Shown: positions 34,589 through 50,298 of the stretch, one piece after another | Numbering within the stretch: position 1 is the first letter of the stretch | Layout of the letters: the number at the start of each line of letters is the position of its first letter | NCBI RefSeq assembly: GCF_902779965.1 | Contig: NZ_CACZDK010000005.1 | Coordinates: 1 to 64,000 of the forward strand | From: Fibrobacter succinogenes | GTDB lineage: Bacteria; Fibrobacterota; Fibrobacteria; Fibrobacterales; Fibrobacteraceae | Direction of reading: 5' to 3' | DNA length: 64,000 nucleotides | Made by a program: the position numbers and the translations under genes | The notes under the pieces: model-generated | Databases searched by the model: none | Seen by the model: only the letters and a program-made list of their open reading frames with translations | Told to the model about the DNA's origin: nothing

Positions 34589-34639
34589 ATGTTTTTTTTG
34601 TATGTTTATAACAAAACATTTCCAATCTAGGAGAAAAAA

Positions 34640-44180: not shown

Positions 44181-45779
44181 TTACTCATTTCGGTTAGAAC
44201 CGATGGCTAATATATTCAATAATACAATAGAGTTACCCGAATATGTCTGAATATGGAATTTTACTTTAGCAACATGTTTGGCAGCTTCTTCACCAGAAAT
44301 AACTTCATGCTTTTTATCAGTATCAGGCTGCTTGAATTGGTTCCATTCAAAACACTGTGTAGATTCACTGCTTTCAAGAACAACCTCTGGCAAAGCACCA
44401 CCTATTTTGGAATTAATAGAATCTCCAAGATCCAGTTGCATTGAAAGCGAGACATCACCACCAGCATATTCATAATTAGCAACAACGCAAATTCCATTCC
44501 AATTCTGAATGTCGGCAGAAAGCATTTCGCCGTTTGTATCAAAGCCAGCTACATAAAAACCGACATCAGAAAATAAGGAATTATCCACGTAGCCTTTTCC
44601 AAACACTACAGCAATAGACAGACTATCAATAGGATAATAATCAGGGAGATTACTTATATTTCCATAAACTGTTTCGTATGTCGAATGCCATTCATACTCT
44701 ATTTTTGCACCCTTTTCAGAATTATCTTCAAAGAAAAATGTTCCAGCATTATTCCCAAATTTGGAAGGGCGATATGAATGTGCTTTTGTATTCACCTGAT
44801 AGTCTCCGACTGACCATAAATCTCCATGTCCAGGGACAACACAAGTTTTACCGCCTTTGCCTTTGCAAGGGTCAACTTCTGGAGGCGCTGATTGATTTTC
44901 TTGATCCCTGCCTGTACCGATGGCTAAAAAACTGAAAGATCCATTATCGGAACCAGGTTGTGCCTGGAAATGGAATATGACCTTTTCAACATGTTTTGCA
45001 GCCTCTTCTCCAGAAATGATTTCATGAGCCCCTTCTATATCCGGCTGCTTGAATTGATTCCAGTCGTAGCACAAAACTTCATTTGTTCGACGAGGTCGAG
45101 ATTCAAAAGGAAAAAGATTAGATTTTTCCTCCTTTTGCGTAATTACCGTTACCGACGGCAAAGCATAACCCATTATTTGATTAAGGGAATCGCCTAAATC
45201 AAGCTGTATTACCGGATCAATTGAACCTCTGTACATCATGCAGATTCCTTTCCAATTTGAAACGTCTGCTGAAAGCGCTGTTCCGTCGGAGTCAAATCCC
45301 GCTACGTAAAAACCAATATTGAAGTAAGAATTTTCAGTCATGCTATCTGGATCAAACTGATAATCACCGGAAAGAAAACCATTATATTTGGAAGAACTGT
45401 CTGGGTGCAAGAATACCCGCGTTACGCTCCCTTCTATAGAATCCGTTTCAAAAAAGATTTCTCCCGCATGTTCTCCAAATTTGTCGAAATCCGAGGCATA
45501 AACATTCGTTTTTACAACAGGATCTCCTATTGATAACAAATCACCATCACCAAACATTTGACCATGTAAACATCCAACATCCCCCCAATCTCCGCTAACT
45601 TTACAGAGGACTAGATGATCTTTAGACGAACTCGAAAGTTCCGAATCGACACTGCTCGACGAAGAACTTTTTTCTGCCGTTAATACACTCGGGTCATCAG
45701 ACGATCCCGAGACATCCGCCCCTGAGCATGCGAGCACCACAAGCGATGCCACATATACCATATATAATTTCATATTCAT
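44181..45779 (-). CDS. Surface lipoprotein with duplicated ~230-residue domain
   Basis: 532 residues. A signal peptide with Cys in VVLACSG and a Ser-rich linker (SSSSSSVDSELSSSS) are followed by two tandem copies of one domain, ~56-282 and ~293-532. Shared landmarks: HGDLWSVGD / GDGDLLSIGD; FGNNAGTFFFED / FGEHAGEIFFET; GFYVAGFD; LSADIQNWNGIC / LSADVSNWKGIC; LDLGDSIN / LDLGDSLN; WNQFKQPD; ISGEEAAKHV. Jelly-roll carbohydrate-binding-like modules come to mind, but the family is not identified. Three bases separate it from the TIGR02147 gene, whose final GAG GAG codons provide the ribosome-binding site. Counterpart of the cassette at 8201-11145. Confidence 0.8.
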   Translation of the reverse strand: MNMKLYMVYVASLVVLACSGADVSGSSDDPSVLTAEKSSSSSSVDSELSSSSKDHLVLCKVSGDWGDVGCLHGQMFGDGDLLSIGDPVVKTNVYASDFDKFGEHAGEIFFETDSIEGSVTRVFLHPDSSSKYNGFLSGDYQFDPDSMTENSYFNIGFYVAGFDSDGTALSADVSNWKGICMMYRGSIDPVIQLDLGDSLNQIMGYALPSVTVITQKEEKSNLFPFESRPRRTNEVLCYDWNQFKQPDIEGAHEIISGEEAAKHVEKVIFHFQAQPGSDNGSFSFLAIGTGRDQENQSAPPEVDPCKGKGGKTCVVPGHGDLWSVGDYQVNTKAHSYRPSKFGNNAGTFFFEDNSEKGAKIEYEWHSTYETVYGNISNLPDYYPIDSLSIAVVFGKGYVDNSLFSDVGFYVAGFDTNGEMLSADIQNWNGICVVANYEYAGGDVSLSMQLDLGDSINSKIGGALPEVVLESSESTQCFEWNQFKQPDTDKKHEVISGEEAAKHVAKVKFHIQTYSGNSIVLLNILAIGSNRNE

Positions 45780-45782
45780 TTT

Positions 45783-46616
45783 TTACTCCTCCAATTTTCC
45801 CTTGACCTTTTTCGATAGCGGGAAAAACTGTAAATTTAGCCTGTAAACCTGATCAAGCTTTCCGCAACTCGCCGCTATCGAAATAATTTTCTTGCGGCAT
45901 GCTTCCAGCTCTTTCACGATTTCTTCGTAACCTTCGCGATTCACGCCCAATGTAACGCCAGCGACATGACGATCTTCGGCATTGAACTGATCAATAGATT
46001 CTATTCCAAGGCGCCCCATTTCACGGTGCATCATGCGGATTGCAAACGGCAGGGCTTCTTTGGAACCAGCAACAGCCTTATCCGTTTGCTCATAAACATT
46101 TTCACGAGTCTGCTTAAGGAAACCTGCATTTTCAAGAAAATTGAGAGACTTGCGAACCTCTTGCGCCGAAACTGTCTGGCAACATTTTTTGGCGATTTCT
46201 CCTGGCATAGCTCCCGGCATCATCGGGGCAAGTTCACGCACTACTGGATTTCTCCAACTTTCATAATACTCAAAAGCGTTCTCGTCAATCAAGCGCACTT
46301 TGTTTGCAGCTGAAATAGCCGCCATTTTGTCAAGGTACTCCTTTTTCACATCATCTTTTTGTGCATTGACAAAATTCACCATCGCTTCGAAATAATCAAT
46401 TTCATACCCAACAAGACCCATGGCGACCGCCACACGATTCATCGCCACACGACTCAGGGAACTCTTGCCATCACACACAAGTTTCAAATACGAAGGAGAT
46501 GTGAAACCAGCAATCCTTGCAAACTCTCGCCAAGTAAACGCCGATGTTCTCTTGCGTTCTTCGTAAAAGTCGGCCATATAGACCCGGTAATCATTATATT
46601 CAACAATCGGTCTCAT
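45783..46616 (-). CDS. TIGR02147 family protein, putative transcriptional regulator
   Basis: 277 residues, paralogous to 8201-9049 over the whole length: IEYNDYRVYMADFYEERKRT, FTWREFARIAGFTSPSYLKL, PVVRELAPMMPGAMPGEIAK, VYRLNLQFFPLSKKVKG. An N-terminal HTH-like segment is followed by the DUF4423-type domain. Presumed regulator of its partner lipoprotein gene, with which it is translationally coupled. A perfect 26-base palindrome and an additional ATGATACAAA half-site lie upstream (46729-46754, 46659-46668). No Shine-Dalgarno; a TATATATT stretch is ten bases upstream of the start. Confidence 0.85.
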   Translation of the reverse strand: MRPIVEYNDYRVYMADFYEERKRTSAFTWREFARIAGFTSPSYLKLVCDGKSSLSRVAMNRVAVAMGLVGYEIDYFEAMVNFVNAQKDDVKKEYLDKMAAISAANKVRLIDENAFEYYESWRNPVVRELAPMMPGAMPGEIAKKCCQTVSAQEVRKSLNFLENAGFLKQTRENVYEQTDKAVAGSKEALPFAIRMMHREMGRLGIESIDQFNAEDRHVAGVTLGVNREGYEEIVKELEACRKKIISIAASCGKLDQVYRLNLQFFPLSKKVKGKLEE

Positions 46617-46778: not shown

Positions 46779-49700
46779 TTAGAATGCGTAAGCGACCTGC
46801 GTTGCGTCCGTCGGATTGAAATCAACACGGTACACGCGAGAATACTGATGGATGTCAACATCTCGACCGAGAATGCGACCATAAATCGCCTTATACACCT
46901 GGCCCATGACAACTTTTGCCTTCGGAGCATAGACGGTCCCTGCCCAAAGGCCTTCGATGCAGACTTTCTGCGATGAATGGTGCGCCAGCTTAAACCCTCT
47001 GGCTACATTCACCCAATATTGAGTATTACTTGCAGGTTCACTATTGTATGTTCTCCAAATAATTTTTCCGTTTGTATGGAGAACAGTGCCTTTACCCGGT
47101 TCGGCAAAACGCACTGTCGAATTAGGCTCAATCTGAAGCATGCTATCCACAAACATTTCACCCGGCTCAATAACCAGTGTGGCTCCAGATTCCACGCGAA
47201 GCGAGTAGAATGTATCCCCGTCCTTCAAACGATACGATTCACCTCCATGTACCACTTTAGTTTGAGACTTGGCAATAGAAGGCATGGGAACCGAATATGC
47301 GTAGGTATATTCATTTTTCCAATCATTTACATATTGCAGAGTTACATTTCCTTCTATGGAAGCCCCATCTTGTTTGGTAAGGTAATCTAAAGGATTTTGC
47401 GATTGCAAATACATAGCCAAAGCTTCTTCAACGTCATTGTTTTCCCTTATAAATTTCGAAAATTCCGAAGGCGCTTTCTTTACTGCATACAAGTTAACAT
47501 CTTCATGGACAACAGAAGAACCACGTAAAAACGGATACGAATGCTTCCCAGGATAACGAGGTTCACCGACACCATCTACAAAAGCACCTTTATCATATCT
47601 AACATCTACATTCCCCACATGAGCGCGAGCTCCTATATTGATTGGCTCATACGAAATATCATATGAAAATTTATTTTCATCGGAAGCCGCTACATTGCAA
47701 TAAGAATCGCTCACCATATGTGTATTGTAGCATTTCACGCCGTCGTTAATTCGCACGTATTCACGTCCAAAAATTGTATAGTTTTCCGGAACGTCCATGT
47801 TAACAACAACTCTGCCACCCTTGAGGCCATCTTCGATACCGTCGCCATCATCATCCGGGTCAAGTTCCGCCGGAATGTCATTCTGATTTTTATCATAGGT
47901 TGCACGAATTTCGTACAAATCATGAGCGAATTCATAAGCATCGTATATATGTTCTACATAGCAATTGGAACAAGCACCATCAGCCGTCACCGTATAATCA
48001 AAGATTTCTCGTTTATCTTCAATACCGTCATTATCGGAATCTACAAGATTCTTATTCAAACAAATGCTTTCATGTGTCAAGTCTACACAAAATCTTGTAT
48101 TTTCTTCAAAATCCGTAATACCGTCACCATCAGAATCCGTATGAACAAGAGGATTTGACATTTCAACATTGCCATAGGTAACATCTGGAATAAAATAGCC
48201 TTTAATTCGCTCACCATAATTTAAAGATGTTCCAAGATTTCCTTGGTTATCAACAAAAGCAAAATAGAACGCATAATTGCTAGCATCGCCCACATAGCCA
48301 TAGATAAGCATCGCATGTCCAGCAAGCGTCGCATGTCCAGGAACATGCAAGTAAATGAGCTTGTTATTGTCAATCGCATTTTTGACAGTCGCATAAGAAG
48401 GCGCTCCCTTTCCATAATTCAGCCTATTCACTTTCAACGCCCATTTCAACGCTTCTACAACATTTCCCATAGGTTCACCAGTTGCAGGATCGAGAAGATC
48501 CTCTTTTGTTAGCGTATCAATTCTTATGAATCCACCCTCCGGGCGGAACGGGGACAATAGAGGATCTTCTATTTTATAGAGCCCATAGTAAACGATTTCA
48601 TCCTGAGTCAAATTGCCTCCATAAAAGTGATTCATCACTTCCGTGGCAATCGCCCAGCATCTAGTATTCTCATGCCATTCTATTGCAGCGGCATCCATAT
48701 TGGGCCTATCCCAAGAATAACCGGGCGTTACAGTCAAATAGTTAAGGTCCAACATTCTCGTGTCACGACGGCCCTTAATTTGATGTATTTTAAGCTGTTT
48801 AAAAATACTAGTATTGATATTGGCTTTTTGAATATCAATATTTTCCACGTTCATCTCCAAAGCCCCATTATACATGCGACTAGTCCAAAATTCATCTTCT
48901 CCAACCACAGTCCATGAATAAAGCCCTTCAGTCAGTTCCAAAGATAAAGACGTGTTAGGCGTACTCAAATTATAAATATCATTATTATTTCGATCACGTA
49001 CAACAACCCTGTACGAATCAACTCCTTGCACTGGAAGCCAGCTGAAAAGAACCTTATTATCCCCTGGAATCTGCTTAATAACAGGCTTATTCGCAGAAGT
49101 CTTAATCGGCAAAGGTACAGAAACAAATTCATCAGGATTGTCGTTACTGGTAAAGCTAAACCAATCATCCGTTTTTACACCAGACTTGTTCGGTTTAAGA
49201 CGGAAAAATACATCTTTGGAGTAATCAGCATTATAGCTTTGAACTTGCTTTTCTGCAGGAAAAAACGCCCGCAAATCGTTCCATACTCCGGCATTAACCG
49301 CATCAGCAGCATGTGCGCCAGGTTCACCCCACGCAACATACGAAACAACAGAATTATTTTGTTTCAAGAAAGCTTCGCCATAGCCGCCCCAATTAAAGTT
49401 TGACAAAATTTGCGATTTACCAGCATTTCCACATGCCGTTTGATTTTGGCAAATACGGAGAACTTCGCCAGATTCAAGAGAACCATTTATCGAGAATGCG
49501 GAATTATTCGCATCAACTAACTGAAAATTCGACAAGACTACGGTAGATTTACCATCGTTTTTTAATTCAAGCCAAGAATTTTCTGAAAACTTGAGACCCG
49601 AGATTTTAACAGTCTTCGGCTCCGGCGCAATTTGAACATCAGGAACAGTCCCAAAAACAACATCATCGCCAGAAAGCAGCACTACTTTCGTATTCTTTTT

Positions 49701-50097
49701 AAATGAAGAAAAAGCCTGATAACTATAATCTTTCGACTTATCCCAACTCGACCAATTTTCGTTATGCAAAGAAATGCTGAATCCATCCATATTGGGATAA
49801 TATCCTACAGAAATAGAAGGCATTCCCAATTCAAAATAAGCAAGGTCTTCATTTACATCATTTACTGATATTGAAGCACCGGCCAAATAATGTTCATCAA
49901 CAGCATACGCCGAAGATGGCTTGTGAAAATAGTATCGAAGTTTTGCATCCCTGATAGGAGAACCGGAATCATTGTTGATTCTGAGTTTAATCCCAGTTAT
50001 GGACGAGTTGTTGTGCTGTTCATCGTAAAAGTCTACAGAAACAGCAAATGCCTGGCTCGCCAAAAGAATTGCGAGCATAAAACTGTTTTTTTTTCAT
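46779..50097 (-). CDS. Large secreted cysteine-peptidase-like protein, start interrupted by A9 tract
   Basis: About 1100 residues. Domains: CBM-like N-terminal region (RINNDSGSPIRDAKLRYYFH), a lamin-tail-like part (~150-300), a fibronectin-type region (~330-410), a papain/C39-like peptidase (~455-640: Cys in NTRCWAIATEVMNHFYGG, His in LAGHAMLIYGY, FVDNQGN), three Asp-rich calcium motifs (DSDGDGITD, DSDNDGIED, DDDGDGIED; ~645-745) and a C-terminal beta domain. The open frame starts at 50078 (MLAILLASQAFA), without ribosome-binding site or positive n-region. An ATG at 50097 with AAGGGAA upstream gives MKKNSFMLAILLASQAFA only if one A of the A9 run (50086-50094) is skipped. Expression probably needs slippage or is phase-variable. 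Confidence 0.7.
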
Positions 50098-50157
50098 ACA
50101 TTTCCCTTATTTTTGTTTTTTTTTCAAACAATTCCATACTTCCAAAAAAACTTTATT

Positions 50158-50269: not shown

Positions 50270-50298
50270 AAAGACGGATTACAATCCGTTTTTTTTGC
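50270..50298. terminator. Bidirectional terminator 1
   Basis: AAAAAGACGGATT-AC-AATCCGTTTTTTTT. It lies between pta and the peptidase gene. Confidence 0.8.

Follow-up and report, generated by a model that had tools for sequence, protein, structure and literature searches.

A nine-adenine start tract places a predicted secreted peptidase gene of Fibrobacter succinogenes out of frame: a possible OFF allele made by slippage

The gene for a large predicted peptidase, encoded on the minus strand of a 64,000-nt stretch of a Fibrobacter succinogenes contig (hereafter the window), carries nine A residues directly after its apparent start codon, and this A9 run separates the start codon from the frame of a signal peptide. 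We consider it an evenly balanced proposition that the run is an OFF-length allele of a start tract prone to slippage, the true start being the ATG at 50097 and the gene behaving phase-variably whether or not such behavior is selected. For this reading we infer a genuine, revertible length change in the DNA, produced by slippage. New here is an orthologue in a second species, represented by genome G096, that is broken at the same start tract with A7. The relevant features of the window are as follows.

46779..50078, minus strand: long ORF of 1,099 aa, with a CBM3-like N-terminus, an LTD-like region, a C39-like cysteine peptidase domain, TSP3-like acidic repeats and a DUF7305-like C-terminus (all matches weak or sub-threshold)
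50076..50078, minus strand: ATG of the mechanical ORF call, inside the hydrophobic core of the would-be signal peptide
50086..50094, minus strand: A9 homopolymer (start tract), directly 3' of the ATG at 50097; with A8 this ATG would read into the signal-peptide frame
50094..50096, minus strand: TGA overlapping the ATG at 50097, closing the long-ORF frame upstream
50095..50097, minus strand: ATG, probable ancestral start, aligned with the starts of L007, L008, L105, L103 and L036; with A9 its frame closes after 25 codons
50099..50101, minus strand: second ATG, in the third frame, overlapping the end of the Shine-Dalgarno region (read by eye)
50102..50108, minus strand: Shine-Dalgarno-like AAGGGAA
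50116..50124, minus strand: second A9, in the leader of the peptidase gene; TGAAAAAAAAACA is present twice
50274..50289, minus strand: terminator-like hairpin 3' of pta

Read along the minus strand, the order is AAGGGAA (50108-50102), ATGT, ATG (50097-50095), A9 (50094-50086), CAGTTTT, ATG (50078-50076), CTC and GCA, with CAGTTTTATGCTCGC standing after A9. A preliminary description of this DNA had placed the Shine-Dalgarno-like motif 5 nt from the ATG at 50097; the distance is 4 nt. With A9, the frame of that ATG yields a 25-codon product beginning MKKKQFYARNSFGEPGICCFCR, whereas the -1 frame, equivalent to A8, reads MKKNSFMLAILLASQAFAV, and the predicted A8 product begins MKKNSFMLAILLASQAFA, followed by V. 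The long frame is open for 1,104 codons, and its sole plausible start near the 5' end is the ATG at 50078 (1,099 codons): frame reading agrees with the earlier account that the TGA lies six codons before this ATG, and no ATG, GTG or TTG occurs in the long-ORF frame between the two. The layout given in that account was otherwise correct but left unmentioned the overlapping ATG at 50101-50099, which could likewise lead into the long frame by a -1 shift on A_AAA_AAA. The arrangement is more than a chance one: among 27 ATG-A8+ sites genome-wide, this site alone precedes a coding-length ORF that lacks another upstream start, and a further match, L054, looks non-coding, with a pair of open frames of about 110 codons that overlap each other. 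Inside the peptidase gene, no A/T run other than the start tract reaches seven, in the window species and in G096 alike. The two copies of TGAAAAAAAAACA lie 30 nt apart (50086-50124), so that two A9 runs flank the Shine-Dalgarno motif. The terminator-like hairpin after pta suggests separate transcription of the peptidase gene.

Orthologues in G027 (66%), G004 (58%), G075 (62%) and G068 (61%) have in-frame starts at the aligned ATG and begin with MKKQYGLILAAILAGQAFA, MKIKSIVLALVMVSQIFA, MKKLNYMVLAMALASHSFA and MRTTKLNGIMLAMVLAGQVHA, respectively, N-termini judged by eye to be signal peptides; the G068 sequence at the start is identical to L036 (Fibrobacter sp. UBA7003). Since the aligned ATG opens a signal peptide in the orthologues with intact frames, the start at 50078 is, on this alignment, a mechanical ORF call. 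Re-reading of the sequence, the frames and the aligned starts thus upheld two earlier proposals, that A9 splits the signal-peptide frame and that the A8 form is a signal peptide. The tract itself is A6 in G027, A4 in G004, A6 in G075 and absent in G068 (by locus, A6 in L007 and L105, A4 in L008, and ATGAGAACA in L103 and L036), and a long run is therefore not conserved: the four other close orthologues have at most six A or interrupted runs. The lengths A9 and A7, both OFF, occur in two species, the remaining orthologues are in frame with A6 or fewer, and no A8 allele was seen among the orthologues compared. No close strain of the window species was found in the collections searched.

The second broken orthologue, L104 in G096, shares 60% identity with the window protein and belongs to a different species; it is also out of frame, and it is also restored by A8. 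Its start is a perfect AAGGAG-aaagt-ATG followed by A7, the locus reading AAGGAGaaagtATG, A7 and CAGCTTTGCG, and the A7 frame stops after 11 codons (MKKTALRWLLH). A8 would give MKKNSFALAIALVCQAFA, which matches the A8 form of the window gene. In both species, the MKKNSF tract is one base off A8, in opposite directions. An in-frame ATGATG located 48-51 nt upstream in L104 could also serve as a start, but it lacks a clear Shine-Dalgarno motif.

SD-ATG-poly(A) start sites were surveyed across 80 Fibrobacter genomes, a census limited by small counts and by the non-independence of orthologues. Among AAGGAG-ATG-A7 starts, 61 of the 62 examined are in frame, a count that covers one recurrent orthologue family in part; the sole exception is the G096 peptidase orthologue. 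At SD-ATG-A8 sites, approximately 52 genes are in frame and two are convincingly broken: L128 (G072), which needs A7 (MKKISLAIIFICCSLALA), and L146 (G003), which needs A9 (MKKKVLYFIAITLCAC); both have A8 after the start, which lies near the middle of each locus, and both encode exported-type proteins. At SD-ATG-A9 sites, approximately 13 genes are in frame and two are broken, namely the window gene and L089 (also L294; G013:C1:126348-126369, minus strand). The latter shows a Shine-Dalgarno motif, ATG and A9, followed by a frame that stays open for at least 499 codons, and needs A8; its A8 form, MKKNIYASALLLFVLGC, has a lipoprotein signal peptide, the protein contains an HEVAH motif, and the G090 orthologue (84%) is in frame with A7G. 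Other broken-start candidates (L121, L148, L200, L207, L213, L219 and L222) proved to be non-genes, antisense frames or genes with another start, and the 5-A pattern offered too few sites to serve as a baseline. Broken starts become more frequent between A7 and A9, but not significantly so (1/62 vs 2/15, Fisher p = 0.10). At the overall broken-start rate of about 5/133, the chance of one broken orthologue in six is approximately 20%, and the two broken orthologues are weak statistics. Because SD-ATG-poly(A) start tracts mostly belong to exported proteins anyway, export is not enriched among the broken starts.

Under the favored reading, translation would truly start at the ATG at 50097, and an A8 tract would encode the signal-peptide n-region (MKKN...). 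Slippage during replication would shift the tract length by one, A8 yielding an exported CBM3/C39-like peptidase and A7 or A9 a short dead peptide; the A9 of the window would accordingly be an out-of-frame length allele with export OFF. As in a contingency locus, tract length sets the reading frame and the product is of the exported type, judging by eye from the orthologue signal peptides. DNA slippage among A7, A8 and A9 is preferred because one step each explains both alleles and because the vaa adhesin gene of Mycoplasma hominis provides a precedent. That L089 (A9), L128 and L146 (A8), all of exported type, share the same fault favors the OFF-allele reading. The unconserved tract argues against an evolved switch, and the apparent decay of L296, a relative of L089 in G096, also counts against this reading. 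The phase variation proposed earlier is thus strengthened by the second out-of-frame orthologue and the vaa precedent and weakened by the lack of a long tract in most orthologues.

The N-terminal likeness of the encoded protein to CBM3 has an E-value of 8e-6, and the LTD, TSP3 and DUF7305 matches are weak. In the peptidase domain, C64, H178 and N201 are invariant among 13 relatives, as a Cys-His-Asn triad would be, and are probably the catalytic residues. Peptidase_C39_2 is matched by 7 of the 13 relatives at E-values up to 1 (best 6.9e-7), but the window protein scores 14.9 bits against a gathering score of 24, below the cut-off; the term "giant peptidase" used earlier is therefore fair as regards the invariant residues and the weak family matches, though not by the Pfam threshold for the window protein itself. 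A PDB profile search with the peptidase domain returned chance matches only, and the AlphaFold model of the domain has a mean pLDDT of 35.5. These features fit a predicted secreted, perhaps plant-fibre-associated peptidase. The pairwise comparison with G027 gives dN 0.24, dS 1.43 and a dN/dS of about 0.17, a low value that reflects past selection and says nothing of the gene being on. Both broken species retain an undamaged 3.3-kb ORF; with the low dN/dS, this means that the start break is recent or tolerated, or that the gene is still used.

The main rival, which we regard as possible though doubtful, is simple loss, that is, a one-base slippage where a dispensable accessory gene mutates most readily, marking the onset of a pseudogene without any switching. 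The gene is indeed patchy, with relatives at E-values below 1e-60 in 10 of 80 genomes (the window's own included), and the window genome holds a paralogue with its own signal peptide on C27. The peptidase also diverges faster than its neighbors: the block around it is syntenic with G027, where it is 64% identical, compared with 98% for pfk, 96% for a TPR gene, 85% for a regulator, 98% for pta and 83% for a fibro-slime gene. In G096, L296 (G096:C23:39366-40877), a relative of L089, is off by one A at its start and has its frame interrupted by two TAG codons; it looks like a pseudogene, and ordinary decay therefore occurs in that genome. Against simple loss, neither broken orthologue carries a further lesion in its 3.3-kb ORF, and one tract has been broken twice, in opposite directions, each time one base from A8.

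As side observations on this neighborhood, TIGR02147 and fibro-slime proteins are encoded in the window, and the segment downstream of the peptidase (44181-46616) encodes a TIGR02147 regulator as well as a protein whose two halves are related to each other; relatives of this second protein adjoin the peptidase in G027, G004 and G096. The open-frame signal at 34592 was set aside because it runs antisense to two genes of the plus strand.

A sequencing or assembly error hiding a true A8 genome is unlikely. The assembly is a draft of 76 contigs with an unstated platform, and singleton frameshifts are often errors (PMC3711429). However, coding A8-A10 runs are in frame in 15 of the 16 inspected in this assembly (the ATG-A8+ loci with a plausible gene plus four runs, none with a frame change across it, in the 384 kb formed by a 320-kb sample and the window), which argues against a generally error-prone assembly. 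Moreover, the G096 orthologue is broken at only A7, and published Fibrobacter isolate genomes, among which the window genome is not known to be, are mostly Illumina-sequenced (PMC6291624).

Least probable, and in our view a marginal prospect, is that the tract is fixed at A9 and that RNA polymerase slippage (A8 or A11 mRNA), or a -1 ribosomal shift on A_AAA_AAA from the ATG at 50101, still yields the protein. A9 reaches the run length associated with transcriptional slippage (upward of about 9 A or T), tssM1 (11 A) and further genes listed have productive poly(A) runs of 10-11 (PMC4256274, PMC6260861), and the slippery heptamer is in frame with the ATG at 50101. Nevertheless, A9 requires -1 or +2, and the usual +1 insertion would not restore the frame; bacterial runs mainly undergo +1 insertion, homopolymer deletions being rare in E. 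coli (PMC5574713), and the poly(A) runs tested with the E. coli polymerase showed none (PMC6260861). The transcriptional slippage raised in the preliminary description is therefore less favored. As for the ribosomal shift, the heptamer is in frame only with the ATG at 50101, which stands too near the Shine-Dalgarno motif, and the slippery site is not conserved in orthologues. Finally, the window and G096 genes need opposite shifts, and G096 has no ATG at the equivalent of 50101.

Among the papers searched, none deals with phase variation in Fibrobacter. If the tract switches, it would represent bet-hedging of a secreted peptidase in a cellulose-degrading gut genus. A mechanical ORF call shifts the start to 50078 and drops the signal peptide, thereby hiding such cases, and the loci with this fault form a small set (the window gene, L104, L089, L128 and L146). 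A bolder reading, possible though doubtful, is that A7-A9 runs directly after the start codon of Fibrobacter signal-peptide genes constitute an export-switch class in which length slippage gates accessory secreted enzymes and lipoproteins.

Among known cases, the window gene resembles the pseudogenes and the singleton frameshifts covered by the GeneTack survey in having a single homopolymer indel, but unlike those singletons it has an orthologue broken at the same site, forming a two-member cluster (PMC3711429). It shares with Citrobacter rodentium tssM1, a case of transcriptional slippage, an out-of-frame poly(A) run in an otherwise intact gene; tssM1, however, has A11, is restored by an added A and needs both forms, whereas the window tract is A9, needs -1 or +2 and is N-terminal (PMC4256274). 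For M. hominis vaa, the account in PMC524362, citing Zhang and Wise 1997, gives A8 as ON and A7 or A9 as OFF, with switching at 1e-3 to 1e-4. Unlike vaa as described there, with its reported switching frequency, the Fibrobacter case is known from genome sequences alone and in another phylum, and its tract lies immediately 3' of the start codon and is not conserved in orthologues. In common with vaa, according to the same account, it has a poly(A) tract at the 5' end of a gene for a surface or exported product, with A8 in frame and A7 and A9 out of frame.
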